In this document: piece after piece, positions 8,256 through 62,024 of the stretch
Layout: each line of letters starts with the position of its first letter
Position numbering within the stretch: the first letter of the stretch is position 1
Notes under the pieces: generated by a model
What the model saw: the letters and a program-made list of their open reading frames with translations, nothing else
Told to the model about the DNA's origin: nothing
Databases searched by the model: none
Program-made: the position numbers and the translations under genes
NCBI RefSeq assembly: GCF_000025605.1
Contig: NC_013894.1
Coordinates: 419,529 to 483,528 of the forward strand
DNA: 64,000 nt
Direction of reading: 5' to 3'
Origin: Thermocrinis albus DSM 14484
GTDB lineage: Bacteria > Aquificota > Aquificia > Aquificales > Aquificaceae

Positions 8256-8263
8256 AGTCTTTA

Positions 8264-11356: not shown

Positions 11357-12452
11357 TACACTTCAGAGCAGAGGACAGAGAATCGTCCTTTCCTAAAGGA
11401 CAGTCTGGCCTTATGCCACCATCCGGTGCTATGGGGGAACCGTCGGGCAATTTCATGACAAAGGTCACCAGCCTCACCACCTTCCCACAGGAGTTAAGGG
11501 GATAAACGTTACTTCCCACATACTTTCCGAAAGTGTTTTCACCCGCTACAACCGCTTTGGCATACCTTTTGAGAAGGGCAGTGAGTAGTTCACCCGCTGA
11601 CGCTGTGTTTCTGTTAACGAGAACCAAAATAGGCATTCCAATGCCCTTTCTGTTACTGAATTCATAAAGAACAACGCCGTTACCCGCCGACTCTAAGTAG
11701 AACATCACCCCCTCACCACCTATCAGAGTGTCCGCTATACCTTTGGCCACCGATATGAGGCCTCCGCTGTTGTTTCTTAGATCCAGTACAAGACCATCTA
11801 TACCTTCTGATATCAGTTTTTCTAAAGCTGCAGAAAATTCCCTTAACGCAGGCATTGTAAAGTTAACGAGGTGTATGTAACCCAGTTTCTTACCCATGAA
11901 CTCCAGCACCTTTACGTCCTCTATAGGATCCACCACAAAGGGCCCTTTGTAAACATCAACGGTGACGAAAAGACCGTTCCTTATTAGGACTAGTTCTACG
12001 GGCTTTTCAGCAGGGGTGTTTCTGATGACAACACTCCACTTGGTGTTGTCTCTTTCGCCGTTGATGGAATAAATGATATCTCCGGGCCTTATGCCTGCCT
12101 TCTCAGCAGGGGAGCCTCTGAAAACCCTAACCACCTGACCTTTGTCATCCCACCTTATACCAATTCCTACCAACTTTCCTTCAGAGTACCAACTCCTGTC
12201 TTCCTCTATGTTGGTTATGGTAGTCCACTTATCACCCTTCTGGCGGAGAAACTGAATAGCCTCTGATTCATCCTGCCACGTGGGTAAAGGACCCAGTTTT
12301 TCCTTCCACAGGTAGTATCTCTGTATGTATTCCCTCAGTCTCTGCAGTGTTTCCTCTCTGGAGCAAGTTTCCTGACTGTAAGCTAACTGAAGCAGTATGA
12401 GAAGTAGGAAAATGGGCAGGTTCATAGCTCCGCAGTATCCTAATAATAACAT
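11313..12452 (-). CDS. S41 family C-terminal processing peptidase (CtpA-like)
   Basis: The 379-residue protein has a signal peptide (NLPIFLLLILLQLAYS), a central PDZ domain (VFRGSPAEKAGIRPGDIIYSI) and a tail-specific protease domain. The catalytic serine lies in NTASAGELL and the lysine about 26 residues later in TFGKYVG. Such enzymes trim C termini of periplasmic proteins. The start could be ATG 12452 or ATG 12425; both keep the signal peptide, and the first has a weak AAAGG ribosome site. The DLRNNSGGL motif before the serine is typical of the family. Confidence 0.9.
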   Translation of the reverse strand: MLLLGYCGAMNLPIFLLLILLQLAYSQETCSREETLQRLREYIQRYYLWKEKLGPLPTWQDESEAIQFLRQKGDKWTTITNIEEDRSWYSEGKLVGIGIRWDDKGQVVRVFRGSPAEKAGIRPGDIIYSINGERDNTKWSVVIRNTPAEKPVELVLIRNGLFVTVDVYKGPFVVDPIEDVKVLEFMGKKLGYIHLVNFTMPALREFSAALEKLISEGIDGLVLDLRNNSGGLISVAKGIADTLIGGEGVMFYLESAGNGVVLYEFSNRKGIGMPILVLVNRNTASAGELLTALLKRYAKAVVAGENTFGKYVGSNVYPLNSCGKVVRLVTFVMKLPDGSPIAPDGGIRPDCPLGKDDSLSSALKCIKPLLPKEDFAITP

Positions 12453-12477
12453 CTGTGGTGCCTTTTGGCAACGCTGT

Positions 12478-12483
12478 TAAAAT
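12478..12483 (+). promoter_or_regulatory. -10 box TAAAAT for the DUF4149 gene
   Basis: TAAAAT ends 8 bases before ATG 12492 and no Shine-Dalgarno is present, so transcription would begin at or near the start codon. On the other strand TATTTT (12484-12479) overlaps it and could serve the divergent S41 protease gene with a 5' leader of about 20 nt. Confidence 0.4.
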
Positions 12484-12491
12484 AAAAGACT

Positions 12492-12887
12492 ATGGAGAAG
12501 ATGCTGGTTTTTCTCAACAGCCTCTATCTGGGAATGGCTTCCTTTTTCAGTTTCTATGTGGCACCTACCCTCTTTAAGGTATTAGGCAAGGAGCAGGCGG
12601 GCAAGGTGGTGGAGAAGGTGTTTCCCGTTTACTTTGGTGTAGGTGGCCTTGTAGCACTTCTGTCCGTCCTTTTGGGTTTTCGGATAGGTAAATTCTTTGT
12701 CCTTCTAGCCATCCTCAATTTACTACTGCACATACTGCAGGAGTTTTACATACTTCCAACGGCAAACCAACTTAAGCAGAGTAACTACGAGGAGTTTATG
12801 AGATGGCACGGTATATCGGTGAGCGTGAATCTAGCCATTCTGGTGATAACCCTCCTCATGGTGGTGATAATACTCAGAAAGTTGTAG
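12492..12887 (+). CDS. DUF4149-family four-helix membrane protein
   Basis: The 131-residue protein has four hydrophobic segments (about residues 5-26, 48-62, 66-84 and 108-129). It has features of the DUF4149 family: YVAPTLFKVL near the first helix, PVYFGVGG before the second, and a WHGIS motif before the fourth. The function of the family is unknown. No ribosome site is visible. Its 3' end overlaps the RusA gene. Confidence 0.75.
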   Translation: MEKMLVFLNSLYLGMASFFSFYVAPTLFKVLGKEQAGKVVEKVFPVYFGVGGLVALLSVLLGFRIGKFFVLLAILNLLLHILQEFYILPTANQLKQSNYEEFMRWHGISVSVNLAILVITLLMVVIILRKL

Positions 12888-13249
12888 AGCTGTACATATC
12901 CACACTCCCTGTTCCTAAAAGCAACAGATACATAAGAAGGCGTGGTGGGAAGGTTTTTAAACCACCTCGTATAAAAAACTGGGAGGTGAGAGCCCTCTGG
13001 GAGATAAAACAGCAGTACTCGGGAAGTACCCTTTTGGGACCATTACGGATGGAAGTGGAGCTTACACTACCCAACCGGAGGAAGAGGGACATAGACAACA
13101 TGCTAAAAAGCTTGTGGGATATTTTAGAAAAAGCAAAGGTTATAGGCAACGACGATCAAATACAGGAACTTTACGTCATAAAAAGGTACTCTAAGGGGCA
13201 GCAGGGTACTAAGATAAGGATCATTGAAGGGATCTCAGATACTCAGTAG
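12803..13249 (+). CDS. RusA family Holliday junction resolvase
   Basis: The core PVPKSNRYIRRRGGKVFKPP, RRDIDNMLKSLWDIL and VIGNDDQIQEL matches RusA. The acidic residues of DID and NDD and the nearby Lys form the metal-dependent active site that cuts four-way DNA junctions. RusA is usually phage-borne but is a chromosomal, active resolvase in Aquifex. Family similarity starts about 30 residues into this frame. No ATG, GTG or TTG lies between, so either ATG 12803 (GAGGAG upstream) gives an N-terminal extension overlapping the previous gene by 85 bp, or a rarer start codon such as CTG 12890 is used. Confidence 0.85.
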   Translation: MARYIGERESSHSGDNPPHGGDNTQKVVELYISTLPVPKSNRYIRRRGGKVFKPPRIKNWEVRALWEIKQQYSGSTLLGPLRMEVELTLPNRRKRDIDNMLKSLWDILEKAKVIGNDDQIQELYVIKRYSKGQQGTKIRIIEGISDTQ

Positions 13250-14480
13250 GATTAAGGGGTATACCATCCTTGTCTCTAAGTTCAAAGTGAAGAACGCACC
13301 TTCCAGAATCCTTATCCTTTCCTATCACTGCTATAGCCTGTCCCTTTTCCACCGTGTCTCCTCTCCTTACCAGGTTGGTGGAGTTGTTGGCATAAAGGGA
13401 TATAAAGCTACCGTGATCTACAATGACCATGTTACCGTAAGCCTTAAGATCATCTCCGCTGTATATCACCTTCCCTGACTCAACAGCTCTTACCTTCTGA
13501 TCACAGTTTCCTACTATCTGCACACCCCTCTGAGCCTTTTCTATCTTACCCTCTACAGGCATAGGCAGTTTCCCTATGCTTATCTTCTTCTCTACCGGTG
13601 GTGGAGGTGGTGTCTCCCTCTCTTCCACCGTTGGTATTTTTTCCCTCTCTGTTTTCTTTTCCACTTTCTCTACCTTTTCAGCCACCTTTTCTTCTTTCAT
13701 TTTTTTAGGGATTTTTACCACCGTTCCCGGCTTTAGCCATTTTCCTTTCAGCTCTGGGTTTAGCTTTTCCAGCTCTCTGAGCGGTACACCCAGTTTTCGA
13801 GCCACATGCTGAAGCTTCGCCCCCTTCTTAACAGTGTAAGTGGTGTAATCAACCTCTTCTCCTTTTTTACTGACCTTTTCCACCTTTTCAGCCACCTTTT
13901 CTTCTTTCATTTTTTTAGGGATTTTTACCACCGTTCCCGGCTTTAGCCATTTTCCTTTCAGCTCTGGGTTTAGTTTTTCCAGCTCTCTGAGCGGTACACC
14001 CAGTTTTTGAGCCACATGCTGAAGCTTTGCCCCCTTCTTAACAGTGTAAGTGGTGTAATCAACCTCTTTCCCTTTTTTACTGACTTTTTCCCCGTGACTA
14101 CGTGCCGGAATCTTCAGCTCTTGACCTTCCTTTATGACATGAGATTTTAGTCCGTTGAATTTGGCCAACTCCTTTACATCTACACCAAACTTCTGAGCTA
14201 TCTCCTCAAGGGTATCACCCTTTTTCACCCTGTAGATGGCGTAATCTCCTTGTTTTTTCTCTGCCTTTGTCTTTACAGGTATACATATCTGCTGACCTAC
14301 CTTCAGCCTGTTCTCCTTAAGGTTTTTGTTGTACCGCTTGATATCGGATAGAGATACGCCGTACTCTCGAGCTATACTCTCCAAAGTGTCACCTTTTCTC
14401 ACTTTGTGGAACTTACACTCTTTCCCCCACGCTAAAGTTATAAGTAAGCTAATACCTAACAGAAAAACCCCTCTCCTCAT
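13221..14480 (-). CDS. NlpD-like LysM protein with degenerate M23 domain
   Basis: The 419-residue exported protein has a signal peptide and four LysM repeats (about residues 22-68, 80-126, 142-188 and 212-258). A Pro-rich linker (ETPPPPPVEKK) and a C-terminal LytM/M23 domain follow. The M23 zinc ligands are missing: the usual YxHL reads LYANNS and the HLHFE motif reads VLHFELR. This matches NlpD/EnvC-type activators of cell-wall amidases rather than active peptidases, so a role in septal peptidoglycan splitting is inferred. The third and fourth LysM units come from a recent DNA duplication (see repeat). The 3' end overlaps rusA by 29 bp. Confidence 0.88.
   Translation of the reverse strand: MRRGVFLLGISLLITLAWGKECKFHKVRKGDTLESIAREYGVSLSDIKRYNKNLKENRLKVGQQICIPVKTKAEKKQGDYAIYRVKKGDTLEEIAQKFGVDVKELAKFNGLKSHVIKEGQELKIPARSHGEKVSKKGKEVDYTTYTVKKGAKLQHVAQKLGVPLRELEKLNPELKGKWLKPGTVVKIPKKMKEEKVAEKVEKVSKKGEEVDYTTYTVKKGAKLQHVARKLGVPLRELEKLNPELKGKWLKPGTVVKIPKKMKEEKVAEKVEKVEKKTEREKIPTVEERETPPPPPVEKKISIGKLPMPVEGKIEKAQRGVQIVGNCDQKVRAVESGKVIYSGDDLKAYGNMVIVDHGSFISLYANNSTNLVRRGDTVEKGQAIAVIGKDKDSGRCVLHFELRDKDGIPLNPTEYLRSLQ
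13672..14091 (-). repeat. Two 210-bp tandem copies encoding LysM units 3 and 4
   Basis: Bases 13672-13881 and 13882-14091 are nearly identical direct repeats with a period of exactly 210 bp (70 codons). Only a handful of mismatches are seen over the pair, mostly synonymous. Each unit encodes one LysM domain plus its Lys/Glu-rich linker. The near identity at DNA level points to recent duplication or ongoing homogenisation. Confidence 0.95.
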
Positions 14481-47656: not shown

Positions 47657-48010
47657 ATGGACAGATACACTCAGGTCCTTCAGGAGCTCATAAAGAACAC
47701 GGGGATAGAAGGTGCTTCCTTAGTATCGGCCGACGGTCTCCCCATAGCCTCCGTCCTTAAGCCGGGCATGGAGGAGGACAGAATAGCAGCTATGAGTGCA
47801 GCTATTTTATCCTTAGGGGAAAGAGTCGCCGACGAACTGGCCAAGGGTTCTCTGGAACAGATAACCATCAAAGGTCACGACGGATACGTCATCCTAACGG
47901 GGGTGGGGACCGACGCCGTCATGGTGGTACTGGCAGACAACAACGCCAAGCTGGGTCTTCTCCTTATGGAGATAAAGAAGGCACAGGAAAAGGTGAAGGG
48001 ACTTCTGTAA
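47657..48010 (+). CDS. Roadblock/LC7 domain protein (MglB-like)
   Basis: The 117-residue single-domain protein has GIEGASLVSADGLPIAS and the central DRIAAMSAAILSLGERVADEL helix, typical of prokaryotic roadblock/LC7 regulators that act as GAPs or partners of small Ras-like GTPases. It starts a three-gene cassette with a DUF4388 protein and a GTPase, which supports an MglB-like role. Cytoplasmic. Confidence 0.9.
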   Translation: MDRYTQVLQELIKNTGIEGASLVSADGLPIASVLKPGMEEDRIAAMSAAILSLGERVADELAKGSLEQITIKGHDGYVILTGVGTDAVMVVLADNNAKLGLLLMEIKKAQEKVKGLL

Positions 48011-48013
48011 AGG

Positions 48014-48709
48014 ATGGCTCTCACAGGAGACCTCAGTAACTTCAGCTTTGTGGATATATTCCAGGTACTCTTACAGGGTAAAAAGAGCGGCATACTGCTG
48101 GTGGAGTGGAAGGACCTTACCTGTGCCTATTACGTGAAGGACGGTGACGTCATCTTTGCCAGACCTGTGGACAAGGTTTTCAGGGTTTACACCGATAGGG
48201 ATTTTGACCAACTTCTGGTCAAGTTGAGGATAGACCCCAAAAGTATGCCGAGGACGGTAGAGAGGTTTCTGGTAGGTAGGTTCCACCTCAAAGAGGGGAT
48301 CTTTTCTTTCACACCGGGCTTTATAAAGTACGGATCTTCTTACCCCGTCGAGTACAGAACTCCTCAGCTCCTCCTGATGGCTTCGAGAGAACTCTCACCA
48401 GAAGAGGTGGAGAGAAAGATATCGGACGAGCTGATGCTTTTGGAAAAACTGCCTTCGGCGGAAGAAACCGTTGGCCAGCTTCCCCTCACGCCTGAGGAGA
48501 AGAAAGTGTGGAATCTCATAGATGGCGTTAAAACAGTGGCCCAAATAAGGGCCGAGTCAGGCCTTCCTAACCTTACGGTGGACAGAGCCTTGTATGCCTT
48601 CATGGCCTTGGGTGTTGTCAAAAGGAAGAAGAAGGAGACACAGCAGTACAAACCCTCCATAACCCTGGAACTGCTGGCCAAGATAATAGAGAGGATAAGG
48701 GGACTGTGA
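48014..48709 (+). CDS. DUF4388 domain protein
   Basis: The 231-residue protein begins MALTGDLSNFSFVDIFQVLLQGKKSGIL, the hallmark of the DUF4388 (PATAN-like) domain of bacterial signalling proteins. A C-terminal winged-helix-like part follows (about 150-215: VWNLIDGVKTVAQIRAESGL). DUF4388 domains often sit near roadblock and GTPase genes. It may be a scaffold or effector for the adjacent GTPase (inference). The stop overlaps the GTPase start by 4 bp. Confidence 0.85.
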   Translation: MALTGDLSNFSFVDIFQVLLQGKKSGILLVEWKDLTCAYYVKDGDVIFARPVDKVFRVYTDRDFDQLLVKLRIDPKSMPRTVERFLVGRFHLKEGIFSFTPGFIKYGSSYPVEYRTPQLLLMASRELSPEEVERKISDELMLLEKLPSAEETVGQLPLTPEEKKVWNLIDGVKTVAQIRAESGLPNLTVDRALYAFMALGVVKRKKKETQQYKPSITLELLAKIIERIRGL

Positions 48710-49257
48710 TGAGGTTGATAAAGAAGATAAAGGTGGTGGTAGCTGGACCCTTTGCAGCCGGTAAGACCCAGTTCATCAACACCGTCAGTGAGATAAAGAC
48801 AGTACAGACGGAGAGGAGAACGAGGGCCTCTTCCGAAAGATCCGTCAAGGAGTACACCACAGTGGCTATGGATTTCGGAAAGATAAGAATAGATGACGAG
48901 CACGAACTCTATCTTTTCGGCACTCCCGGACAGTCACGCTTTGATTTTATGTGGGAGATACTGGCGGAGGGGGCCCTAGGCATCATAATACTGGTAGACA
49001 GTACAGATCCTTCCACCTTTCATGAGGCACGCAGGATAATAAACTTCTTCCAATCCCGTTTCCCAGTTCCCATGGTGGTGGGAGCCAACAAACAAGATCT
49101 ACCCAACGCGTGGCCACCTGAGGATATAAGGATAGCCCTTGATATAGATGAGAGCGAGAACATTCCAGTGATTCCGTTATCTGCCAAAGATAAGGAAAGT
49201 GTGAAGAACGTTCTGCTGACACTTCTCTATCTCATAAAGAAACAGATGGAAGTTTGA
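48706..49257 (+). CDS. Ras-like small GTPase (MglA-related)
   Basis: The 183-residue protein has G1 GPFAAGKTQFI, G3 FGTPGQ, G4 NKQD and G5 SAK, so it is a bacterial small GTPase related to MglA/Rup proteins. The G3 motif with TPGQ and a Thr-rich switch I (EYTTVAMDFG) is typical. With roadblock and DUF4388 partners it likely sets polarity, motility or a surface process; the exact output is unknown. The gene ends 7 bp from convergent argC. Confidence 0.92.
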   Translation: MMRLIKKIKVVVAGPFAAGKTQFINTVSEIKTVQTERRTRASSERSVKEYTTVAMDFGKIRIDDEHELYLFGTPGQSRFDFMWEILAEGALGIIILVDSTDPSTFHEARRIINFFQSRFPVPMVVGANKQDLPNAWPPEDIRIALDIDESENIPVIPLSAKDKESVKNVLLTLLYLIKKQMEV

Positions 49258-51182: not shown

Positions 51183-51647
51183 TCATCTTTCTGCCTGTAT
51201 CTTGTACCCTCCCTCTCTTCCTCCTTCGGGTATGTACCAGTCCCTGAAACGTACGTATCCCAGATCCCTGAGCTTCTTACCTAACCTGGTTTCCTCCACA
51301 GGAACACCCTTTTTAAGCTCCCACATGGTCTTAGGATCTGTGTAATACTCTACAAAGAGGCGATCAAATCTGTCCGACAGAAGGCGGTAAAGCCAGTCTT
51401 CTGCGGGACTCTCAAAGAAGGAGGTGTCTATGTCAAAGAGCTCTGCCCAAGGCTTCCAGTAAGGCTCTCTGCCATAAAAAAGCTTCACTGTTAAAATGTG
51501 CTTGTCTTCCAGCACCATCACAAAGTCTTCTTCTTCCGCAAACCTACCAACCTTTACTTTGACGGCATAAAACCTACCTTCTCCCCACTCTGTACCTTCT
51601 CTCAACCTGGACCTCAGATCATCTATGGTAGTCTTTGAGAGCCTCAA
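51183..51647 (-). CDS. Conserved hypothetical protein (possibly DUF1122-like)
   Basis: I do not confidently recognise this protein. The likely product has 154 residues, starting at TTG 51647 because GAGGAGGG lies just upstream; the frame is open to 51713, but that would overlap hisS by 95 bp. Features are a Tyr/Trp-rich middle (VKLFYGREPYWKPWAELF), ESPAEDWLYRLLSDRFDRLF and a basic GGREGGYKIQAER end. No signal peptide or membrane helix. DUF1122 is a guess from memory of Aquifex and archaeal proteins. It follows hisS with a 29-bp overlap. Confidence 0.6.
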   Translation of the reverse strand: MRLSKTTIDDLRSRLREGTEWGEGRFYAVKVKVGRFAEEEDFVMVLEDKHILTVKLFYGREPYWKPWAELFDIDTSFFESPAEDWLYRLLSDRFDRLFVEYYTDPKTMWELKKGVPVEETRLGKKLRDLGYVRFRDWYIPEGGREGGYKIQAER

Positions 51648-52845
51648 GTTTAACCCTCCTCTGTTCACCAGTGGCCAGATCTTTGATGCTAACCTCCGAA
51701 GAATTTTTCTCATCTTCCCCCACTATAACAGCGTACCTGGCTTTAAACTTGTTGGCCAGCTCCAACTGTTTCTTTAGAGAACCCTTCTTGTAAGAGATCT
51801 CCACCCTCTTACCCTGAGATCTGAGAAAGTCAGCTACCATAAGAGCGTACTCCTCTACTTGGCCAAAAGGTATAACAAAGTAAAGAGGCTCCTCCTCTTC
51901 TTGGACAGAAACCAGCATAGAAAGTCTCTCTACTCCCACCGCAAAACCTACCGCAGGCGTGGGTGGTCCACCCAGTTCCTCCACCAGGTAGTCGTACCTT
52001 CCACCTGCTATGATGGTGATGTTTAAAGTTTCTGAGACAGCTTCAAAGACAGTACGTGTGTAGTAATCAAGGCCCCTCACCAGATGTGGGTTTTCTCTGT
52101 AAGGAACTTCCATAACTTCTAGATACCTTTTTACCGAGTGGTGATGTTTTTTACAGTCCTCACACAGATAATCCAGCATACGGGGTGCTTCCTTCACCGC
52201 TTCCTGACACGTGGTTACCTTACAGTCCAGCACCCTAAGGGGATTTTTATCCTTTCTCTCCATACAAACGTCACAAAGATGTCCTGCCACACTTTCCAGA
52301 AACTTACTGAGAGCTTCTCTGTAAACAGGTCTGCACACCTTACACCCCAAAGAGTTTATCTCCACCACCGCAGGTATTCCCAGTTCCTTAAGTATGAGAT
52401 GAACTATCTTTATCACCTCGGCATCCACCAGAGGATCTTCACTACCAAAGACCTCCGCCCCTATCTGGTGGAACTGTCTGTATCTACCCGCCTGAGGCCT
52501 CTCGTACCTGAACATAGGACCCTCATAGAAAAGCTTCACGTAAGGCCTAAGGGTGTAAAGACGGTTCTGAAGGTAAGCCCTCACAGCGGAAGCTGTGCCT
52601 TCAGGCCTTAAAGCCAACAACCTACCCTTCCTATCGGGAAATACGAACATCTCCTTTTGAACTATGTCTGTAAAGTCTCCTATACTCCTCTGAAAAAGCT
52701 CTGCGTACTCCACCACCGGTAGTATGACCTCTTCAAAGTTAAACCGTCTCAGAACTTCTCTAACCGTCTGTGTCACACGCCTGAACTTTCTAAGATCTTC
52801 ACCCAATATGTCATGGAAACCCCTTACTGTCCTAAACTCCTCCAT
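51619..52845 (-). CDS. hisS: Histidyl-tRNA synthetase
   Basis: The 408-residue class II synthetase has GFHDILGED, motif 2 FRYERPQAGRYRQFHQIGAE, LVRGLDYYTRTVFE and GGRYDYLVEELGGPPTPAVG, followed by a C-terminal anticodon-binding domain. TATAAT at 52857-52852 ends 6 bases before the ATG and no ribosome site is present. It marks the left edge of the core chromosome next to the defence island. Confidence 0.96.
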   Translation of the reverse strand: MEEFRTVRGFHDILGEDLRKFRRVTQTVREVLRRFNFEEVILPVVEYAELFQRSIGDFTDIVQKEMFVFPDRKGRLLALRPEGTASAVRAYLQNRLYTLRPYVKLFYEGPMFRYERPQAGRYRQFHQIGAEVFGSEDPLVDAEVIKIVHLILKELGIPAVVEINSLGCKVCRPVYREALSKFLESVAGHLCDVCMERKDKNPLRVLDCKVTTCQEAVKEAPRMLDYLCEDCKKHHHSVKRYLEVMEVPYRENPHLVRGLDYYTRTVFEAVSETLNITIIAGGRYDYLVEELGGPPTPAVGFAVGVERLSMLVSVQEEEEPLYFVIPFGQVEEYALMVADFLRSQGKRVEISYKKGSLKKQLELANKFKARYAVIVGEDEKNSSEVSIKDLATGEQRRVKLEALKDYHR

Positions 52846-52957: not shown

Positions 52958-54643
52958 TTATTCACCAGCACTTCCTCCGGTCTGTGATTCTACATACTCT
53001 TTCACCTTTAGTATTGCCTTCCTATACACCTCAGGAATGAGATCTTCCTTTGCTGTCAATTCCCCAATAATTCTGCCAAGTATAATTGATTTATTACCTC
53101 TCAGTTTTTTGATGCTATCTTCTTTATTAATTCTTTCCAAGAAAGCTTTTCTCCCTTGTTCACTTCTCTGATATGCTCCTAATTCCACAAGTATGTCATA
53201 CAAAATCTCCTGCTTCCCCTTTTCAAACAATAAATTTACTAAATCTTCTTCAAAATCCTTACCTTTAGTTATAAAGTCATATCCTTCCAAATCTTTCCCA
53301 TCATCCTTATCTGCTATAGAAATTGTTTTGATTCCAAAATGATTCAAAAGCTTGCATAACGGCTCTATGCTACCTTTACCGTCAGCCTTTAGCACACTTA
53401 TTCCATACTCGTCCATGTCTCCTAAAAGTTTGTTCACCCATACAGGTATTGCCCCAGCTTCTGTATCTCCTTCAACAACAATTACACAATTTGAGAAAAA
53501 TGCCTCTTTTATATGTGGAATATTCTTTAAAAGTTGTTTTTCTTCTTTCTCTCCTAGTTGTATGGATATACCACTCTTTGCTTCAATTTTGTCACCAGAA
53601 GATACATAAAACCTTACTATTTGCTTATAGTCGTTCAGTAAAATATTTGGTGAATGGGTAACAACTATTGCCTGTCCTAACAATCCTGAAATATTAAAAG
53701 CATTTTTAAGTAGATCTAAAAATTCTTTATCTTCATTTGAAAGGATTCGCTTGATATACTTTATCAAACTTCTCTGCATATATGGATGAAGATGTATCTC
53801 TGGTTCATCTAATCCAAGGATTAATGAAATATAACGATTATCCTTATGAGTATCAGTATCTGTATATATACATTCATTAGTATACTGTTTTCTTTCCAGT
53901 AAGTACATTATCCTTTCCAAAACTGATAGAATAACGATCAGCTGAAACTGGACACCATATCCAAGTTTCATTATTTCAATTCCATCTCTATCTTTTAAAT
54001 TTATTAACCTCTGGATAAGATCCTTTATGTCCTTTTCCTTTTCCGCTCTTATACCGAATTTTTCAAAAGGTTTTAACTTTTCAAAAAATGAGTTTATTTC
54101 TTCTAAAATATTATCTAATTGTTCTATCTTTATCTCAATATTTGATGTTTTGCCTTCCTCAAAAGATTTTTCTATTAGGTAGTGTAAAAACTTACCCACG
54201 CCTCTTCTTTTATGGAAAGTTAGCTCCTCATCTGGTTTTCTTAATGGATCGTATCTTATGAAGTTAGCACACCTAAAGTATTTATAATCTATGGGTTTAC
54301 TACTTTCTTTATGAAAATATTTGATTCCTTCGTCTGGATCTTCCTGCTTCACTATAACATTAATACGGTTGCTATTGTTAGGATCAAAATAATCTTCAAA
54401 GATACCAATTTCCTTTTCATCCAATAATAAGGAGATCTCAATCTCTATAGGTGTAGGATTCTTCGGATCTTTAAAATCTCCTTCTTCAAATCTTCTTTTA
54501 TTAAAAATAATATCAAGTAAATCCAGAAAGTTAGATTTTCCTATATTGTTCTCCCCTACAATAAACGTAATATCTTCGTGTAAACGAATCTCTACCCCAT
54601 CTAAGTTTCTAAAGTTACTGCATTTGACCCTCTCGATCTTCAT
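52958..54643 (-). CDS. OLD-family ATP-dependent endonuclease (AAA + TOPRIM)
   Basis: The 561-residue protein starts with an SMC-like ATPase half (MKIERVKCSNFRNL, Walker A GENNIGKS at 30-37). The Walker B/signature region is LGLDEPEIHLHP. The C-terminal TOPRIM nuclease has VIVVEGDTEAGAIPV and SIADKDDGKDL. OLD nucleases act in phage defence, alone or with a partner (GajA-type). The gene has GGGAGG before its ATG. It is AT-rich like the island and follows the methyltransferase tail. No UvrD-like GajB follows, so it is either a single-gene defence or part of the four-gene cluster. Confidence 0.88.
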   Translation of the reverse strand: MKIERVKCSNFRNLDGVEIRLHEDITFIVGENNIGKSNFLDLLDIIFNKRRFEEGDFKDPKNPTPIEIEISLLLDEKEIGIFEDYFDPNNSNRINVIVKQEDPDEGIKYFHKESSKPIDYKYFRCANFIRYDPLRKPDEELTFHKRRGVGKFLHYLIEKSFEEGKTSNIEIKIEQLDNILEEINSFFEKLKPFEKFGIRAEKEKDIKDLIQRLINLKDRDGIEIMKLGYGVQFQLIVILSVLERIMYLLERKQYTNECIYTDTDTHKDNRYISLILGLDEPEIHLHPYMQRSLIKYIKRILSNEDKEFLDLLKNAFNISGLLGQAIVVTHSPNILLNDYKQIVRFYVSSGDKIEAKSGISIQLGEKEEKQLLKNIPHIKEAFFSNCVIVVEGDTEAGAIPVWVNKLLGDMDEYGISVLKADGKGSIEPLCKLLNHFGIKTISIADKDDGKDLEGYDFITKGKDFEEDLVNLLFEKGKQEILYDILVELGAYQRSEQGRKAFLERINKEDSIKKLRGNKSIILGRIIGELTAKEDLIPEVYRKAILKVKEYVESQTGGSAGE

Positions 54644-54674
54644 GCTAAATAACCTCCCTATATTTCATTATACT

Positions 54675-54839
54675 TCATCTGCTCTTTGCCTTCAACAACC
54701 TATTCTTTACAAGTTCCAGCACTGCACGATAAACTTCAAGTTGTTCTTCTTCGGTTAAGCCAAGGGTTTCAAAGACGATTTTGTCAAGTTCTCTTCTGCC
54801 GGGCATTATGCGGTTAAAGGAAAATTTTTTTGTTTTCAC
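54675..54839 (-). CDS. 54-residue detached C-terminal tail of the DNA methyltransferase
   Basis: A GTG at 54839 overlaps the methyltransferase stop (GTGA). It opens a 54-codon frame ending TGA at 54675 and reading KTKKFSFNRIMPGRRELDKI, then a helix (LTEEEQLEVYRAVLELVKNRL). From memory, similar helical ends occur at the C terminus of large Eco57I-class methyltransferases, so this looks like a tail split off as a separate coupled peptide. A programmed frameshift or decay product is the other possibility. Codon use fits coding. Confidence 0.6.
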   Translation of the reverse strand: MKTKKFSFNRIMPGRRELDKIVFETLGLTEEEQLEVYRAVLELVKNRLLKAKSR

Positions 54840-57800
54840 GAGATATTCCCTCCTTCTATTATATTTATTTCATCTTCTGTGAGTTGGTATAGTTCATATA
54901 CTAATTTGTTAATTTGTTGTTCTAAAGCTTTTACTTGTTCTTGTTTTTGGGTGTTCTGGGGGTAATCTTCACTCTTAGTTATGGCAAGGATTTGATCTAC
55001 AAGCTCTTCTATCTGCCGGGCTATGTGCTGGTTTTGGGGAGTGATGGGGGGGATGGGGAGTTGTTCGACATATATGTTGAAGCTCCTTGTAGTTTTCCCT
55101 GAAAGACTGGCAGCCACTTGGTTGTAATAAAAAGCTACTAGTTTAGAGTTCAGGACACCTAACAAATATTTAAGTAGAACATGTCTGACTGGAATAATAA
55201 AGTATGTAGTATTAAGACCAACTGTTGTATCTGGGACCAATGCAAATTTTAATGAAATATCAGAATATCCTATTTTATCTTTTAGCAAACAATTTAACTT
55301 TTCCTTACTCGGTGCAGCTTGTAATTGAAACCACTTTTGATTTCCTGCTCGCTTTTCCAGAGCAAATTTGTATTGTTTTAAGTATTCCTCTAGAGCAGGT
55401 AAGCCCGATATATTAACCTCCTTCGTAGTCAGTATCACCCACAACCCCGCCCACTTATAACCCCACTTAAAAATGTCCCTTCCTCTCAAAACAGGTTTTA
55501 TCAGTTCTTCAGTTCTTTTCCTTTCCTCTTCTGTTTTGCAGTTAGCCAGTATTCTGTTCCTCGTCTCAGTGTCTATGATAAAAGCCTCGTTGTAGCCTGT
55601 TAGAACTCCACGGTAAATTTTCACATCCCATTCCTTCAGAGGCTTTCCTACTTTCTCTATCTTTTCTTTCAGAGCTAAAACCTCATCATCCGCCAATATG
55701 AAAGCTTTTTCTGAGAGCTTTTCTTGTGGAATGGTTTTAAGGTTTGCACGGATGTAATCAATTAAATTGTCTTCTACTTCATCCTGTTTAACCACCAAAT
55801 ATTTTACAATATGTCCTTTTTTGGGTTTTTTCTTTTTAAACAAAATTATATTAGTATCAACTGTTTGTTCAAACACTCGATAACCTCCGAAGTCGATTAA
55901 ATGCTCTATCTCTGTATTTTCTTTTAAGAATTTCCTCAATTTTTCTCCATACTTTGCCCTCATCCATTTGTTGGAGCTTATGAAAGTTAAAATTCCATTG
56001 TCTTTGAGTAAGTTATATCCCTTCTCATAAAAATAAACATACAGGTCTGCAGTACTTGTAAATGTTTGGTACCCTTGTCTTTGCAGTAATGGTTTCAGGT
56101 CTTTTATCCTCTCTTGTCTCACATACGGTGGATTTCCTATCACAATATCAAAACCATCTTCTACTCCAAACATCAACTCAGGATCAAACCAGTCAGCTTT
56201 TGCAGTCTGGTCAAAGATGTTAAGGTTGGCTATTTTTTCTGCTTCTTCACTCTTCCATCCACTTCTTTTTAGTTCTTCTTCTATCTTTAATATTATTTCT
56301 CGTGCTTCTTTCTGAATTTCCCCCTTTTCTTCTCTCTTTCCTGGGCTAAAGTACTCTTCGTAAACCTCTTTGAGTTTAGCTATATACCCTTTAATCTTTT
56401 CATCTCCGAAACTTAACTGTCTCTTTTCCTCAAGTCCTATCAGTATATTGGCTGCAACAAACTTTGTCTCAAGGTGGGGAAGTGGTCTTATTCCGTAGTT
56501 TTCCTTATTCGGGTCAATCTTCTGGTAAATTATGAGAGAAAGGAAAAATCTGAGCTTGCATATCTGTGTGGCTATTCGCTGAATATCTACTCCATAGATG
56601 GAGTTCCGTATGAGATAGAGCTTTCTTGCATAATCGGGATTGTTTATGCTTTCGTCAAAGCTTTCATCTTCAACTTCATGCTGTGCTTTTTCACGTTGCT
56701 TCTTTTTCAATAGTTCATTATTCTCATCTATTTTCTCAAGTATATGAACAAGTTTATGCAGAATTCCCATTGGAAAAGCACCGGAACCAACCGCTGGGTC
56801 AAGGATTTTTAACTCATCTATAGCTTTTATGATCTCCTCTTTCTCTTTGTCACTTATTTCTGGTTTTTCATCAGAATAAGAGAGAAGCTCTCTTATTTTC
56901 TCCTCCGGTATTGATGTTTTGTTTTTGAAGTACTCTACAAGAGATTCTTCCACCATGAAATCTACTATCTCTGGAGGTGTGTAATAAGACCCTGTTGCTT
57001 TTCTTTCTGAAGTCTGTGTTTCCTGATTATATGCTGCAAGAAGGTTTTCAAAGATGATTCCCAATAATTTCGGGTCAAGAGAAACTTCCACATCAATAGG
57101 ACTGTTCTCATCAGCAGTAAAGTTGTAATCTTTGAGAATGTTTATAAGTCCTCTAACTTTTACTCTCTTTCTCTCCCCATAAAAATCCGTAAGGTCAACT
57201 TTCCTTTCTTCTCCAAAAAAGAGTTCATCAGGAATTTTTGCTCTCCATTCTTCATTTTCGCTAAATCCATCAATGAACTTTTTATTATCCTCATCGTCAA
57301 GACATTCAAAAAGTCCGCCGTTTATAAAGGGAACCTTTTCAAAGATCTTGATATACTCTTGCGGATCTAAGTTAATAAATTGCTTATATCTGAAATAAGT
57401 CCAACTCCTTTCCCTAGGATAGGTATTCATGGTGGCAAAGAATAGATTTTGTAAAACAACATTGTAATATTTATCTCCATTTCCAAAGTCCTTAACAACA
57501 TCTTTGAGCCATCTCTCATCAAAAATTTCCTCTGGAATAAGTCCTCTTTCTTTAAGAAACCATACAAATATGAGTCGTGTAAGAAGTCTTATAAGATTTT
57601 CTTCAAGTTTTCCTCCAGGGAAAAAGCATTTTGATTCTTCTTTTAGTGCCCACGCAAACCAGTTCTGAATCTCTGTGTAAAACTCTCTGGTAAGTGGCAA
57701 GGTTGAAAAGGCTGAGATTATGTTTTCAAGAGTATCAAATTTTGCCTCCGTTAGAGCCTTGACAAAGGTGCGATATGGTTTACCCCTTTCAACGTAGTAG

Positions 57801-58195
57801 GTATATCTTTTGTAGTAGCTGTATTCTGCCTTTGTCCCTTTGGGTATGGTATAGATAAGAGAAAATCTAAAATTTTTATTATCATCGTAAAAAACAAAAA
57901 ATCCAGATTGAATATAATTATCTTTCAGAATTCTTCTCCCGAATTCATACTGTTTCTTTTTGCTGGTTCTCTCTTTAAGCTCTCCTGAGGTTTTTATAGC
58001 AAATACATGAAAGGCCTTCCCATCGTTAAGTTTTCCTTCCGCTACTTTATATACTTCTGAGAAATAGTCATCTTCATAGTCATATTTCCTTTCAGGAGGT
58101 TGGTAAATTGTAAAATTAGGGTTTTTACTAAGTAAAAGCTCGCTAAGTTTTTCTATTGAGAAATCCTCTGCAAGGCTTTTAACTAGCTCCTGCAT
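54836..58195 (-). CDS. Eco57I-class adenine-specific DNA methyltransferase with N-terminal and specificity domains
   Basis: The 1119-residue protein has an N-terminal part (1-190) with a possible degenerate nuclease-like segment (HVFAIKTSGEL). Next come a helical region, the GSYYTPPEIV motif near 403, SAM motif I DPAVGSGAFPMG near 466, and catalytic NPPYVRQ near 688. A C-terminal TaqI/Eco57I-like specificity region follows (IKPVLRGRDIFKWGY). The layout fits a type IIG-like or PglX-like enzyme that methylates adenine in a specific sequence. ATG 58195 is preceded by AAGGAGGG. It overlaps the helicase gene by 17 bp. Confidence 0.9.
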   Translation of the reverse strand: MQELVKSLAEDFSIEKLSELLLSKNPNFTIYQPPERKYDYEDDYFSEVYKVAEGKLNDGKAFHVFAIKTSGELKERTSKKKQYEFGRRILKDNYIQSGFFVFYDDNKNFRFSLIYTIPKGTKAEYSYYKRYTYYVERGKPYRTFVKALTEAKFDTLENIISAFSTLPLTREFYTEIQNWFAWALKEESKCFFPGGKLEENLIRLLTRLIFVWFLKERGLIPEEIFDERWLKDVVKDFGNGDKYYNVVLQNLFFATMNTYPRERSWTYFRYKQFINLDPQEYIKIFEKVPFINGGLFECLDDEDNKKFIDGFSENEEWRAKIPDELFFGEERKVDLTDFYGERKRVKVRGLINILKDYNFTADENSPIDVEVSLDPKLLGIIFENLLAAYNQETQTSERKATGSYYTPPEIVDFMVEESLVEYFKNKTSIPEEKIRELLSYSDEKPEISDKEKEEIIKAIDELKILDPAVGSGAFPMGILHKLVHILEKIDENNELLKKKQREKAQHEVEDESFDESINNPDYARKLYLIRNSIYGVDIQRIATQICKLRFFLSLIIYQKIDPNKENYGIRPLPHLETKFVAANILIGLEEKRQLSFGDEKIKGYIAKLKEVYEEYFSPGKREEKGEIQKEAREIILKIEEELKRSGWKSEEAEKIANLNIFDQTAKADWFDPELMFGVEDGFDIVIGNPPYVRQERIKDLKPLLQRQGYQTFTSTADLYVYFYEKGYNLLKDNGILTFISSNKWMRAKYGEKLRKFLKENTEIEHLIDFGGYRVFEQTVDTNIILFKKKKPKKGHIVKYLVVKQDEVEDNLIDYIRANLKTIPQEKLSEKAFILADDEVLALKEKIEKVGKPLKEWDVKIYRGVLTGYNEAFIIDTETRNRILANCKTEEERKRTEELIKPVLRGRDIFKWGYKWAGLWVILTTKEVNISGLPALEEYLKQYKFALEKRAGNQKWFQLQAAPSKEKLNCLLKDKIGYSDISLKFALVPDTTVGLNTTYFIIPVRHVLLKYLLGVLNSKLVAFYYNQVAASLSGKTTRSFNIYVEQLPIPPITPQNQHIARQIEELVDQILAITKSEDYPQNTQKQEQVKALEQQINKLVYELYQLTEDEINIIEGGNIS

Positions 58196-61100
58196 GATTT
58201 CCCTCCTTCTGGTTTTCAATTGCTATTATTATCTCTCCATCTTCTTCCTTAATATGTTTTCCGATTCTCTCAATAAAGTCATCTCCAATTTGTTCTCTTA
58301 ATTTTTCAATTTCTTTAACTAACTCATCTATTCTCTGATTCTTCAAATACTCTTCCCAGTCAACGATTTCAGATAGAGCATATTCAGAAAGCGTCCCAAA
58401 ACTTCTTATATCTTCAAGTAAGTCAGATATGAATTTTTTATATGGCTTGAGCTTTTCAACATTATCCATACCAATTAGGGTGCTTAGGAGATTAGCTGCT
58501 TTTACAGATGTTTCATTTGATCTTTTTGGAGAAGTTCTTTGATATCTTCCTTTATCAAGAACTTGATGGTAGTTTTTCCAGAAACTATCACTTAAATTAA
58601 GCGATTTATCTTCTGGAGTTGCCTTTACTTTTTCATAAACTTCTTCAAATGTTTTTACTGATGGATTCTTTTCATTATAGTTTTTGTATCCAACAAAGAT
58701 GTCTTTACCTCTTTTGATAAATACCATCAGTTCGTTCTCCTCTCCTCTTTTCGCAACTTTTATTCTGTTAGGTAAGTCCCTTACTCTATCTTCAATGTCC
58801 GGATATTTCTCTTTTATTTCTTCAAACTCACGCCTTAACTTTGTAAAGAAGCTTTCCTCTTCCTCATCTTCTTTATAGGTCGTCAATCTCTGATAAAGTT
58901 TTGAAGGTGTTGGTTCTTCATCTGGGGCAAATATTTTTGCATCTTCACCGAGGACATTGTGAATCATAAACATTTTGGTTTGGGCAATTTCTCTTGATTT
59001 TACTATGTCCGCTCCCTTTTCGGTCGGGAAAAAGTTAACGATGTAGATTTCATCATAAACTTTTTTACCAATTCTATTAATCCTTCCAACCCTTTGAATT
59101 ACCCTTACAGGATTCCACGGAATATCATAGTTTATAACAACTCCTGCCCTGTTCAGATTGAATCCTTCCGAAAGTTTATCTGTTGTAAGAAGTATATAAT
59201 ATTTATCTTCTTGTTCTTTATACTGAGCGTCAAAGTTTTTGTATAAAGCGTCCACTGTGCTTTTACTTAAATTTCCAACTGCAAGAAGAAGCTTGTCCCC
59301 AAACTTCTTTTCAAGTTTCTCTTTTAAATATCGTGCTGTATCAAGGTATTCTGTAAAAATAACCACTTTTCTTCTTTCGTTCAAAAAATTCTCAATTCCT
59401 TCTATAAGACGTTCAGCCTTTGGGTCGTATTCATTTAAACCAACTTTATCCATCTCTTTCAAAAGGTCCTCAAAAAGTTTCAAATCATTTTCTATATCTT
59501 TAATAAATTTTTTACCATCCTTGAATTTTTCTATCTCATAGACTTTGTGATACTTCCTATCAATCTCTCCTTCCTTAAGTTTTTCTTCATATTCGGCAAG
59601 TTTTTTATCTATCTCTTCAGAGTCTGCGGTAACAACCTCCTCCATGAGTTTTCTATCAAGTATGAACTTTCCTGTTTTCTTTACAAAGTCAAGCGCTGTC
59701 TCATGAACTCTTTTAAATCGCTCTACACTTTCTCTGAAAGCTCCAAAACTACTTTCAAACCTTTTAACAAGAAGTCTTCTCATAAAATCATAGAGGTTTC
59801 TCTGAGATGTATAAAGAAAGCTTTCTTCTTCCGTAAGTTTTAGTTCTTCCGAAAATTCGTCCCCTTTTAATCCCTTTTCATATCTTATAGGAAAGTATAT
59901 TGCACCGGTGAATACCCCCCCTTCATCAATGGGCTTAAAACTTTCTATAACTTTATCGTAAAATTTTAGTTGTTCTGGAGTAAGCTCAAAGAACCATTCC
60001 TGAGGGTCTTTTACCTCTGGCATATCTATTTTTTCTCCATAATATTTTAAATCTAGTCTATTCCTACGTATAACTATGGGTTCAAGAATAGCTCTTATCT
60101 CTTTAGCAATCTTTCGTGCAAGTTCTTCCACACGAGAAATATCAATATCTTTACTTTGAAATACTTCATAAAAGTATTTTCGTGCTCTGTCCCTTCTCTT
60201 TTTATCACTTGAGTTATGATAACTTCTTATATAAGCAAGCTTTTTAAAAGTATTTTCATATTCCCAAAATCTATATTCAAGATTTTCATCAAAAATAATG
60301 GATGATTTTTTAGGTATGGTAAAAAGTTTTAACATCGCAAATATATCGCTTGGACGGTTGTTAAAAGGCGTTGCGGTGAGGAGAATAACTGTTTTCCCTC
60401 TGCATATCTCATGCAGATAATGATAGCTCTGAGTTTTTTCATTTCTGAATCTGTGCGCTTCATCAACTATTATCACTTCAATATCTTTATGCTCTTTAAC
60501 AAACTTCAGAGCTTCTTCAAGTTTTCCAAGAGAACGAACTTCCCACCCCCACAGTTCAAAGTCCTCAAGATATTTTTTCCATCCAAATCTTTTATTTTCG
60601 TCCCCAACAAGGTGAGGAGGGCATATTACTAATCCTCTTTTTCCAAGTATTTTTGCAACAAGACATGCTGTAACTGTTTTCCCGAGACCTACAACATCAG
60701 CAAGAATTGTTCCATTGTGTTCTTTACAGTTTTTAACTGCCTGAGCTACAGCCTCTATCTGGTAAAGGTATGGTTTATATCCTTTACTCCTCATAAATTC
60801 ACTGAGAAGATTTACCGTTAGCTCCTCCCCTTTTAAGGTCTCAAGGTAAACTTTTAGAAGATAGTAATACGCTTCAAACGGTCTTATTTCTTTGAGGAAA
60901 GTTTCATTTTTGATTACATTCACCACATTATTTTTATCTATTTCAATAGCCCTCTTCCACAAACTATCAAAATATTTTTCTGCCTCTTCAAATCCATAAT
61001 CTTTAATTTCCACATTGAATTCATTTTGGGATTCAAGTCCAGCTTTTGTAAGATTACTACTTCCAGTTATAAAGAGGTTTGGAATGATCTGATTTACAGA

Positions 61101-61538
61101 TTCATTCATTTTGAATAAATATAATTTTGCATGATTTGGTTCTCTTGTTTTTCTTATAACAAGTTTTCCCTCTTCAATGAGTTTTACGAAGAACTTAGCC
61201 TGCTCGTATACTTCCTCTCGGTCAAGTTCCTGTGATGAGAGAGCCTTTTTTAGCGATTCAAAAAATTCCTTCTTTATAAGATCTGAGTTAATGAACTTAT
61301 TAATTTTAGCATATTCATAAATTCCAAAATTTCCTTTATCAACATTTAACCCCACAAGAATTTTAATATGTTGATTTTTGAGTAGTCCCTTTTCATCCAT
61401 TGATTTTAGAGTTTCATAAAGTTCTTTGAGTCCGGAGAAATAGAAGAAGCCAACGAGGAATTTCAATTCTTCGCTTCTTTCAATAAGGGTCTTTAGCCTT
61501 TGCTTTAAATTTTTTTCTTTGTCATTGGTTATAAACAT
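58179..61538 (-). CDS. PLD-nuclease-fused SNF2-type helicase
   Basis: The 1119-residue protein combines an N-terminal phospholipase-D-like domain (HAKLYLF, HxK at 136-138, and GSSNLTKAGL at 159-168) with a superfamily 2 SNF2-like ATPase. Walker A is VVGLGKT at 282-288, DEAH is at 359-362, then LTATPFNNRPSDI, and motif VI is VIQRVGRINRIG. The single HxK/GSxN set suggests a dimeric nuclease, as in BfiI-type enzymes. Directly upstream of the methyltransferase, it likely provides ATP-driven restriction. No PglZ, BrxC, DrmB or other BREX/DISARM hallmark is present. Confidence 0.9.
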   Translation of the reverse strand: MFITNDKEKNLKQRLKTLIERSEELKFLVGFFYFSGLKELYETLKSMDEKGLLKNQHIKILVGLNVDKGNFGIYEYAKINKFINSDLIKKEFFESLKKALSSQELDREEVYEQAKFFVKLIEEGKLVIRKTREPNHAKLYLFKMNESVNQIIPNLFITGSSNLTKAGLESQNEFNVEIKDYGFEEAEKYFDSLWKRAIEIDKNNVVNVIKNETFLKEIRPFEAYYYLLKVYLETLKGEELTVNLLSEFMRSKGYKPYLYQIEAVAQAVKNCKEHNGTILADVVGLGKTVTACLVAKILGKRGLVICPPHLVGDENKRFGWKKYLEDFELWGWEVRSLGKLEEALKFVKEHKDIEVIIVDEAHRFRNEKTQSYHYLHEICRGKTVILLTATPFNNRPSDIFAMLKLFTIPKKSSIIFDENLEYRFWEYENTFKKLAYIRSYHNSSDKKRRDRARKYFYEVFQSKDIDISRVEELARKIAKEIRAILEPIVIRRNRLDLKYYGEKIDMPEVKDPQEWFFELTPEQLKFYDKVIESFKPIDEGGVFTGAIYFPIRYEKGLKGDEFSEELKLTEEESFLYTSQRNLYDFMRRLLVKRFESSFGAFRESVERFKRVHETALDFVKKTGKFILDRKLMEEVVTADSEEIDKKLAEYEEKLKEGEIDRKYHKVYEIEKFKDGKKFIKDIENDLKLFEDLLKEMDKVGLNEYDPKAERLIEGIENFLNERRKVVIFTEYLDTARYLKEKLEKKFGDKLLLAVGNLSKSTVDALYKNFDAQYKEQEDKYYILLTTDKLSEGFNLNRAGVVINYDIPWNPVRVIQRVGRINRIGKKVYDEIYIVNFFPTEKGADIVKSREIAQTKMFMIHNVLGEDAKIFAPDEEPTPSKLYQRLTTYKEDEEEESFFTKLRREFEEIKEKYPDIEDRVRDLPNRIKVAKRGEENELMVFIKRGKDIFVGYKNYNEKNPSVKTFEEVYEKVKATPEDKSLNLSDSFWKNYHQVLDKGRYQRTSPKRSNETSVKAANLLSTLIGMDNVEKLKPYKKFISDLLEDIRSFGTLSEYALSEIVDWEEYLKNQRIDELVKEIEKLREQIGDDFIERIGKHIKEEDGEIIIAIENQKEGNHAGAS

Positions 61539-61667: not shown

Positions 61668-62024
61668 ATGCGGGTGAGGTTCAGAATAGCTCTGTACAGG
61701 GATGGTGTAAGGCTTACCAAAGAACAGCTTAAGGATCGTAAGGATCCTTTGGGAATAGGTATGCGCTACGTGACGGAGTTTAAGTACTTGGAGGCTACCA
61801 AGTGGCTTATGGTGGCGAAAGACTCCTATGAGAAGTACCTGTTGTTGGGTCTTATTAACTTTGCTCTTGCTCAGGACTGGCTGGGAAGGGAGTTTCTAGA
61901 AAATGCTTCCCTGTACGAACCTGCGGAAAACGTCCAGTTTTTTGTAGAGGTTCCCGAAAAGGGCCTTCGTGCAGAGATAAAGGGTCTGCGGGACGTTCTT
62001 AATCTACAGAGGTTAAGCGCCTGA
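61668..62024 (+). CDS. Hypothetical protein, helical
   Basis: I do not recognise this 118-residue protein. It begins MRVRFRIALYRDGVRLTKEQ and has a central paired-helix region (YLEATKWLMVAKDSYEKYLLLGLINFALA) that resembles a TPR hairpin. It ends EIKGLRDVLNLQRLSA. There is no signal peptide or metal motif. Base composition is back to the chromosomal norm, so it lies outside the island. The 3' end overlaps the VWA gene by 26 bp. Confidence 0.6.
   Translation: MRVRFRIALYRDGVRLTKEQLKDRKDPLGIGMRYVTEFKYLEATKWLMVAKDSYEKYLLLGLINFALAQDWLGREFLENASLYEPAENVQFFVEVPEKGLRAEIKGLRDVLNLQRLSA

Follow-up and report, generated by a model that had tools for sequence, protein, structure and literature searches.

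Four genes on the minus strand of Thermocrinis albus DSM 14484, encoding a PLD-SNF2 protein, an Eco57I-class methyltransferase, a 54-aa protein and an OLD nuclease, stand in tight order within a stretch of 64,000 nucleotides (the window; contig NC_013894.1, positions 419,529 to 483,528), which raises the question of whether they form one restriction-like system or several elements that came to lie side by side. The arrangement reported in an earlier note, with overlaps of 17 bp between the first two genes (HEL and MT) and of 4 bp between MT and the tail ORF, and a gap of 31 bp between the tail ORF and the OLD gene, was reproduced exactly when the coordinates were recomputed:

58179-61538, minus strand: HEL, gene of the PLD-SNF2 protein, ATG start, 1119 aa.
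54836-58195, minus strand: MT, methylase gene, ATG at 58195 behind AGAAGGAGGGAAATC, 1119 aa.
57700-58195, minus strand: N-terminal domain of MT, residues ~1-165, with the sheet-and-helix order of type IIG enzymes in the structural model.
54675-54839, minus strand: detached tail ORF, GTG start, 54 aa, behind AGAAGGAGGGAATATCTC.
52958-54643, minus strand: OLD gene, ATG start, 561 aa, behind GGGAGG.
52958-61538: AT-rich island as a whole, flanked by hisS (51619-52845, minus strand) and a gene for a 118-aa protein (61668-62024, plus strand).

That the island is AT-richer than both flanks also holds, with a GC content of 34% as compared to about 47% (0.343 versus 0.480 in the 10 kb to the left and 0.473 in the right flank), and the lowest value of any left-side segment equal in length to the island is 0.437. 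The family calls were likewise upheld, namely PLDc_2, SNF2 and Helicase_C for HEL, Eco57I and TaqI_C for MT, and AAA_21/AAA_15 with an OLD-like TOPRIM domain for OLD. No tRNA genes are located inside the island or adjoining it, and hisS and the VWA gene are not adjacent in congeners, which therefore offer no clean empty-site comparison. Elsewhere in the window, positions 47657-49257 hold a tight plus-strand run of three genes, including one for a 231-aa protein, the other two of which we take to encode a roadblock-like protein and a small MglA-type GTPase.

The part of the island that is conserved as a unit consists of HEL and MT. At least 575 relatives of HEL were found in one scan of genome contigs, the best 80 of which cover more than 15 phyla as judged by record title. 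Of 128 HEL loci, 110 have a gene for MT next to HEL on the same strand, in some cases ahead of HEL, and it is found within 6 kb in 24/29 loci of the order, 70/80 loci of other genomes and 16/19 viral contigs (L179-L197; IMG/VR); since the loci were collected via HEL, these counts speak for MT near HEL and not for MT alone. Most HEL loci that lack MT break off at a contig edge close to HEL, others (L086, L092, L098, L108, and L197) offer space for it on a single side, and L042 is a true exception in the order. When the gene families around the pair were counted in 109 loci, HEL was present in 109, MT in 92 and the next family in 6, so that in this set the pair has no recurrent third neighbour and the conserved unit is therefore HEL plus MT. 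The suggestion that the methylase and the ATP-driven PLD-SNF2 protein belong together in a restriction-like system is thus borne out by a pair that is kept across phyla. The pair is also found on plasmids, and its presence on viral contigs suggests proviruses or other mobile elements as carriers of the system; no HEL relatives were detected in phage genomes at 1e-40. A literature search outside REBASE and most of the subscription literature found no paper naming this exact pair, which is apparently a widespread, minimal two-gene system for which no name was found.

HEL combines a PLD nuclease (residues ~1-200) with a SWI2/SNF2 translocase (~250-850), as detected by the Pfam models PLDc_2, SNF2-rel_dom and Helicase_C, with the PLDc_2 match at residues 26-194 and the SNF2 part after it, and has extra C-terminal regions beyond these two parts. 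In an alignment of 32 relatives, the PLD residues H136, K138, GSSN (159-162) and E173 are invariant, as are DVVGLGK (281-287) and D359, E360 and H362 of the DEAH motif in the motor and the main residues of motif VI, QRxGRxNR (815-822; QRVGRINR in the window). The predicted structure (pLDDT 80) has RapA as its top Foldseek match, with SauUSI (7clg) also among the matches. No PADLOC or NCBIfam model takes HEL as a full member of any named system: it reaches 170 of the 610 bits required by the DrmD model, HmaA matches weakly, and the model C3a139 (‘HKD+Snf2’), which may represent a related candidate, reaches 104 bits.

Judged by its sequence, MT is a complete N6-adenine methylase with its own target recognition domain and a C-terminus that we refer to as type a. 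The Pfam domains Eco57I (PF07669, residues 531-775) and TaqI_C (PF12950, 900-1048) score above cut-off, the motifs DPAVGSG and NPPY are found at 466 and 688, respectively, and the order of parts is N-terminal domain, helical connector, methylase and recognition domain. The C-terminal end, LVYELYQLTEDEINIIE, matches that of full-length relatives, for which LVYxLYxLTEEEI is typical when complete, and the predicted structure (mean pLDDT 86) has CamA, M.BseCI, BrxX, and MmeI among its Foldseek matches. Among 28 relatives, no conserved E-x-K is present at residues 66-68 of the N-terminal domain, that is, no D...ExK nuclease site, and hence the nuclease function most likely resides on HEL, while the N-terminal domain itself may be a dead nuclease or a docking domain.

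We consider it probable that HEL and MT constitute a split Type ISP-like ATP-dependent restriction-modification system, with the tail being a scar and OLD an independent cargo. In Type ISP enzymes, an SF2 motor is switched on once the methylase and its recognition domain have recognised their target, and the DNA is cut by motors that converge (PMC7049714), and SauUSI is a translocating PLD-SF2 enzyme (PMC7913695). By analogy with both, we propose that MT would methylate adenine at the host's own sites, with the specificity being set by its C-terminal half, since this half holds the target recognition domain. At an unmethylated site, MT would stay bound, form a complex with HEL and activate or load it, HEL would then translocate along the DNA by means of its SNF2 motor, and upon meeting another complex or a block the PLD domain would cut, so that this site-dependent translocation and cutting could serve in defence. 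The nuclease would hence be carried by the motor chain and not by the methylase chain. Shared with the Type ISP enzymes LlaGI and LlaBIII are a nuclease, an SF2 translocase, which in HEL has intact Walker and motif VI residues, an N6-adenine methylase and one recognition domain per methylase. However, Type ISP enzymes are single polypeptides, whereas two genes encode these activities in the window and in the relatives; their nuclease is of the Mrr type, whereas that of HEL is a PLD domain attached to an SNF2/RapA-type motor; and the C-terminal half of MT is closest to CamA and M.BseCI, unlike that of Type ISP. Type ISP enzymes are further defined by an ATP-driven convergence of two complexes ahead of the cut and by m6A on one strand of an asymmetric site. 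SauUSI and CglI/NgoAVII share with HEL a PLD nuclease combined with an SF2 motor, either by fusion or as a partner, but SauUSI, which possesses an SRA domain, attacks DNA that is methylated, whereas recognition here lies on a separate methylase.

The small ORF between MT and OLD had been described as a detached tail, of which the similarity to a methylase tail stands; it is, however, the tail of a different methylase type and not a piece of this MT. Its residues 12-53 correspond to the C-terminal ~43 residues of methylases that belong to the same family as MT and have another type of C-terminus (type b), with 69% identity to the C-terminal end of the type-b MT in L055, and no family model matches it. 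An origin as the cut-off end of the present MT was rejected, as MT ends like its full-length relatives, and so was a conserved small gene when tested with a 25-sequence profile, as the detached copies start at different points and two of them are broken. Because the break points vary and copies are damaged, the tail is most likely the scar of a C-terminal (specificity) exchange by recombination. The present type-a MT would have been written over an earlier type-b methylase, or joined to it, leaving ~43 old codons, and whatever stood behind the type-b codons would have stayed as well, in this case the orphan GajA-type OLD gene. Similar remnants of other lengths are seen in L050, where a frameshifted type-b tail lies directly behind the stop codon of an MT with a type-a C-terminal half, whose N-terminal part is 73% identical to that of L052 (the frameshift, at an A run, could be a sequencing error); in L053, where a type-b tail with a stop codon lies 1.1 kb behind a type-a MT; and in L077, from a delta-proteobacterium, where only the second half of the tail is present and overlaps the MT stop. 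Against a scar, the tail is an open frame that overlaps MT stop to start and is preceded by a strong ribosome site, and its differences from the L055 counterpart are mostly silent (dN 0.26, dS 1.3; 42 codons), a pattern as in a live gene, although a scar of recent origin would look alike. In L050, the scar is followed by a gene (12070-13389) for a PDC-M30/M41-like candidate defence protein and not by OLD; the position after MT resembles a slot whose cargo varies.

OLD is an orphan GajA-type protein that forms a cargo and not part of the core of HEL-MT. It scores 643 bits with the PADLOC GajA model PDLC00085, its TOPRIM domain is above cut-off, and it has the motifs GENNIGKS (Walker A, 30), VVEGDTE (389), and DKDD (445). 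OLD thereby shares with the GajA subunit of Gabija the OLD-type ABC ATPase and TOPRIM domain, and is 32% identical to GajA on two plasmids of Lactiplantibacillus (L. plantarum), where a UvrD-type GajB then follows. No GajB stands beside OLD in the window, as the earlier note had pointed out: hisS comes after 112 bp, and the best GajB-like match elsewhere in the genome (E=3.7e-6) is not convincing. At E<=1e-20, a relative of OLD was found in 1 of 198 other genomes of the lineage (G024), which lacks HEL; any match to OLD was near HEL in 2 of 128 loci, and none was detected in viral contigs. The same note had combined the action of OLD with that of the methylase and the PLD-SNF2 protein, naming a lack of conservation of OLD with the pair as what would speak against this, and these counts largely show such a lack, so that this part of its reading is not supported. 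Its more open wording, an unnamed system or two systems side by side, is retained as to the side-by-side placement, but OLD, as an orphan GajA, is not a complete system. OLD probably acts alone as a second, independent defence.

How closely OLD and the tail are tied to the pair nevertheless has to be weighed. In a four-part system, the tail would be a small docking subunit coupling OLD to the methylase or motor, and OLD would fire when restriction is blocked, in line with reports that OLD nucleases serve BREX and related systems as back-up effectors (PMC12839542). The overlap of the tail ORF with the MT stop and its strong ribosome site would fit such an arrangement, as would the placement of genes for OLD/RecF-type ATPases: of 31 distinct sites with a type-b end, 5 have such a gene starting 23-80 nt further on, compared with 1 of 92 MT ends of other kinds (Fisher p=0.004, a post hoc value from related and partly chosen loci, in which the OLD genes were recognised by their Walker A pattern only and divergent type-a methylase ends were placed by the last tblastn match). 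These five sites (the window, L053, L071, L163, and L208) involve at least three OLD families, namely a PDLC00085-like one in the window, an OLD-like one in L053 and L163, whose proteins are 47% identical to each other, and a PDLC00102-like one in L071, and a detached tail is present at three of the OLD sites (the window, G014 and G082). However, the tail carries a stop codon in G014, a frameshift in G033 and lacks one half in L077, nearly all HEL-MT pairs have no OLD nearby, and G082 has the tail and OLD on a 12-kb contig without MT or HEL, in a genome without a close HEL. We hence regard the four-part system as unlikely. The narrower proposal that the type-b tail is a docking module for OLD nucleases, kept as a 54-aa gene after exchange of the recognition half of the methylase so as to couple a GajA-type OLD to split restriction, appears to us quite improbable; if true, a restriction enzyme could change its specificity and still retain a plug-in back-up effector. 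We read OLD behind type-b operons as a cargo carried along, and since OLD/RecF-type ATPases recur directly behind the type-b tail, OLD of the window probably arrived together with that tail. In L163 (3615-5971) and L204, a type-b tail fragment lies directly before OLD on a contig piece without methylase or helicase, possibly as the relic of a lost restriction operon.

Alternatively, MT alone could be a Type IIG-like restriction-methylase, with HEL as a mere accessory. The best PADLOC models for MT are those of REase_MTase_IIG (414 bits), the most likely PADLOC annotation is a type IIG enzyme for MT and a solitary GajA for OLD, and MT shares the domain order and the Eco57I and TaqI_C domains with Eco57I, BpuSI, and MmeI. 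It differs from these in that its N-terminal domain has no conserved nuclease site and in that it is kept with a motor partner, HEL being beside MT nearly always in loci that were, though, collected via HEL. To our knowledge, type IIG enzymes do without a PLD-SNF2 partner, and we hold it very unlikely that MT works alone.

The pair could also be part of a DUF499-centred system (Hma/BREX-related type 2) or a DISARM-like system, the other components of which are encoded elsewhere in the genome. The helicases of type 2 BREX-related systems have an N-terminal HKD nuclease on an SNF2 helicase and stand beside an N6 methylase (PMC12839542), HEL and MT are distantly similar to DrmD and DrmMI, and the genome does have a DUF499 gene. 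However, this sole DUF499 match is ~1 Mb away from the island and has its own helicase and methylase: in L060 (9894-18561; G000:C1 ~1479893-1488561), a NOV-type SNF2 helicase (NOV C-terminal domain), a DUF1156 methylase and an 851-aa DUF499 ATPase form an operon that is a separate DUF499/Hma-type system. Among 12 HEL-bearing genomes, DUF499 is absent in 9, DUF1998 in 10 and PglZ in all 12. The HEL-MT locus thus shares the HKD-SNF2 effector and N6 methylase with the DUF499 type 2 systems but has no DUF499 ATPase, and neither this nor any other third family recurs beside the pair; type 2 loci are also expected to encode a DUF3780 protein. In class 1 DISARM (DrmMI, DrmD, DrmC), a single operon similarly provides an Eco57I-type methylase, an SNF2 helicase and PLD activity, but it includes DrmA and DrmB, both of which are lacking here, where the PLD domain and the SNF2 motor share one chain. 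The earlier remark that hallmarks of BREX and DISARM are missing also holds for this genome, in which no match to PglZ or to DUF1998/MZB (PF09369, DrmB) was found. Hma was also rejected as a name, as the match to HmaA is weak, Hma needs the DUF499 ATPase, and HmaB was called an m5C methylase (PMC8565338). Taken with the position of the DUF499 gene, a dispersed system of this kind is highly improbable. We give equally little credence to the operon being an inactive relic in a decaying island, since the orphan GajA and the gene fragment do point to past loss, but the catalytic motifs of HEL, MT, and OLD are all intact, the frames are open over 8.5 kb, the junctions are tight and the ribosome sites strong.

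Exchange of the specificity part is also visible within the methylases of the family that HEL and MT represent. Close relatives of MT are mosaics, in which residues 1-560 are about 45-72% identical, while residues 560-1119 are either well or poorly conserved, with the recognition part at 41-66% or 9-20% identity. Two plasmids of the Thermus family encode the methylase, a separate recognition subunit with a type-b tail, and HEL (L175 4831-12372; L176 5578-12363). At five loci, an inverted, silent copy of the recognition part lies directly behind MT and is adjoined by a recombinase of the serine invertase type:

L187, 13603-16073: inverted silent cassette, arms of up to 291 nt at 98%.
L191, 13627-16195: inverted silent cassette.
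L195, 13574-16000: inverted silent cassette.
L137, 15742-18118: inverted silent cassette.
L091, 5753-7728: inverted silent cassette.

The serine invertases are 65-73% alike, and L121 has the recombinase with a weaker inverted repeat (8192-8767, in part). Crossing over in the cassette arms would swap the recognition domain, and together with their invertase the cassettes probably allow these PLD-SNF2/methylase restriction systems to switch specificity by inversion. Such switches are familiar from Type I hsdS (PMC4948785, PMC7394358, PMC5903667), while no description of one for the HEL-MT family was found in the literature searched. Within the MT of the window, inverted repeats are limited to short, poor pairs, and hence there is no inversion switch here.

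For the study of defence loci, the window is a warning about co-location, as an intact defence gene adjoining a system need not belong to it. Two genes seem to be enough for HEL-MT to achieve what takes DISARM or DUF499 systems a larger set, and as the pair is both common and minimal, it offers a good test of the least that is needed for translocation-dependent restriction. The cassettes with their invertase, moreover, make the switching of the mark that separates self from non-self directly testable outside Type I hsdS loci.
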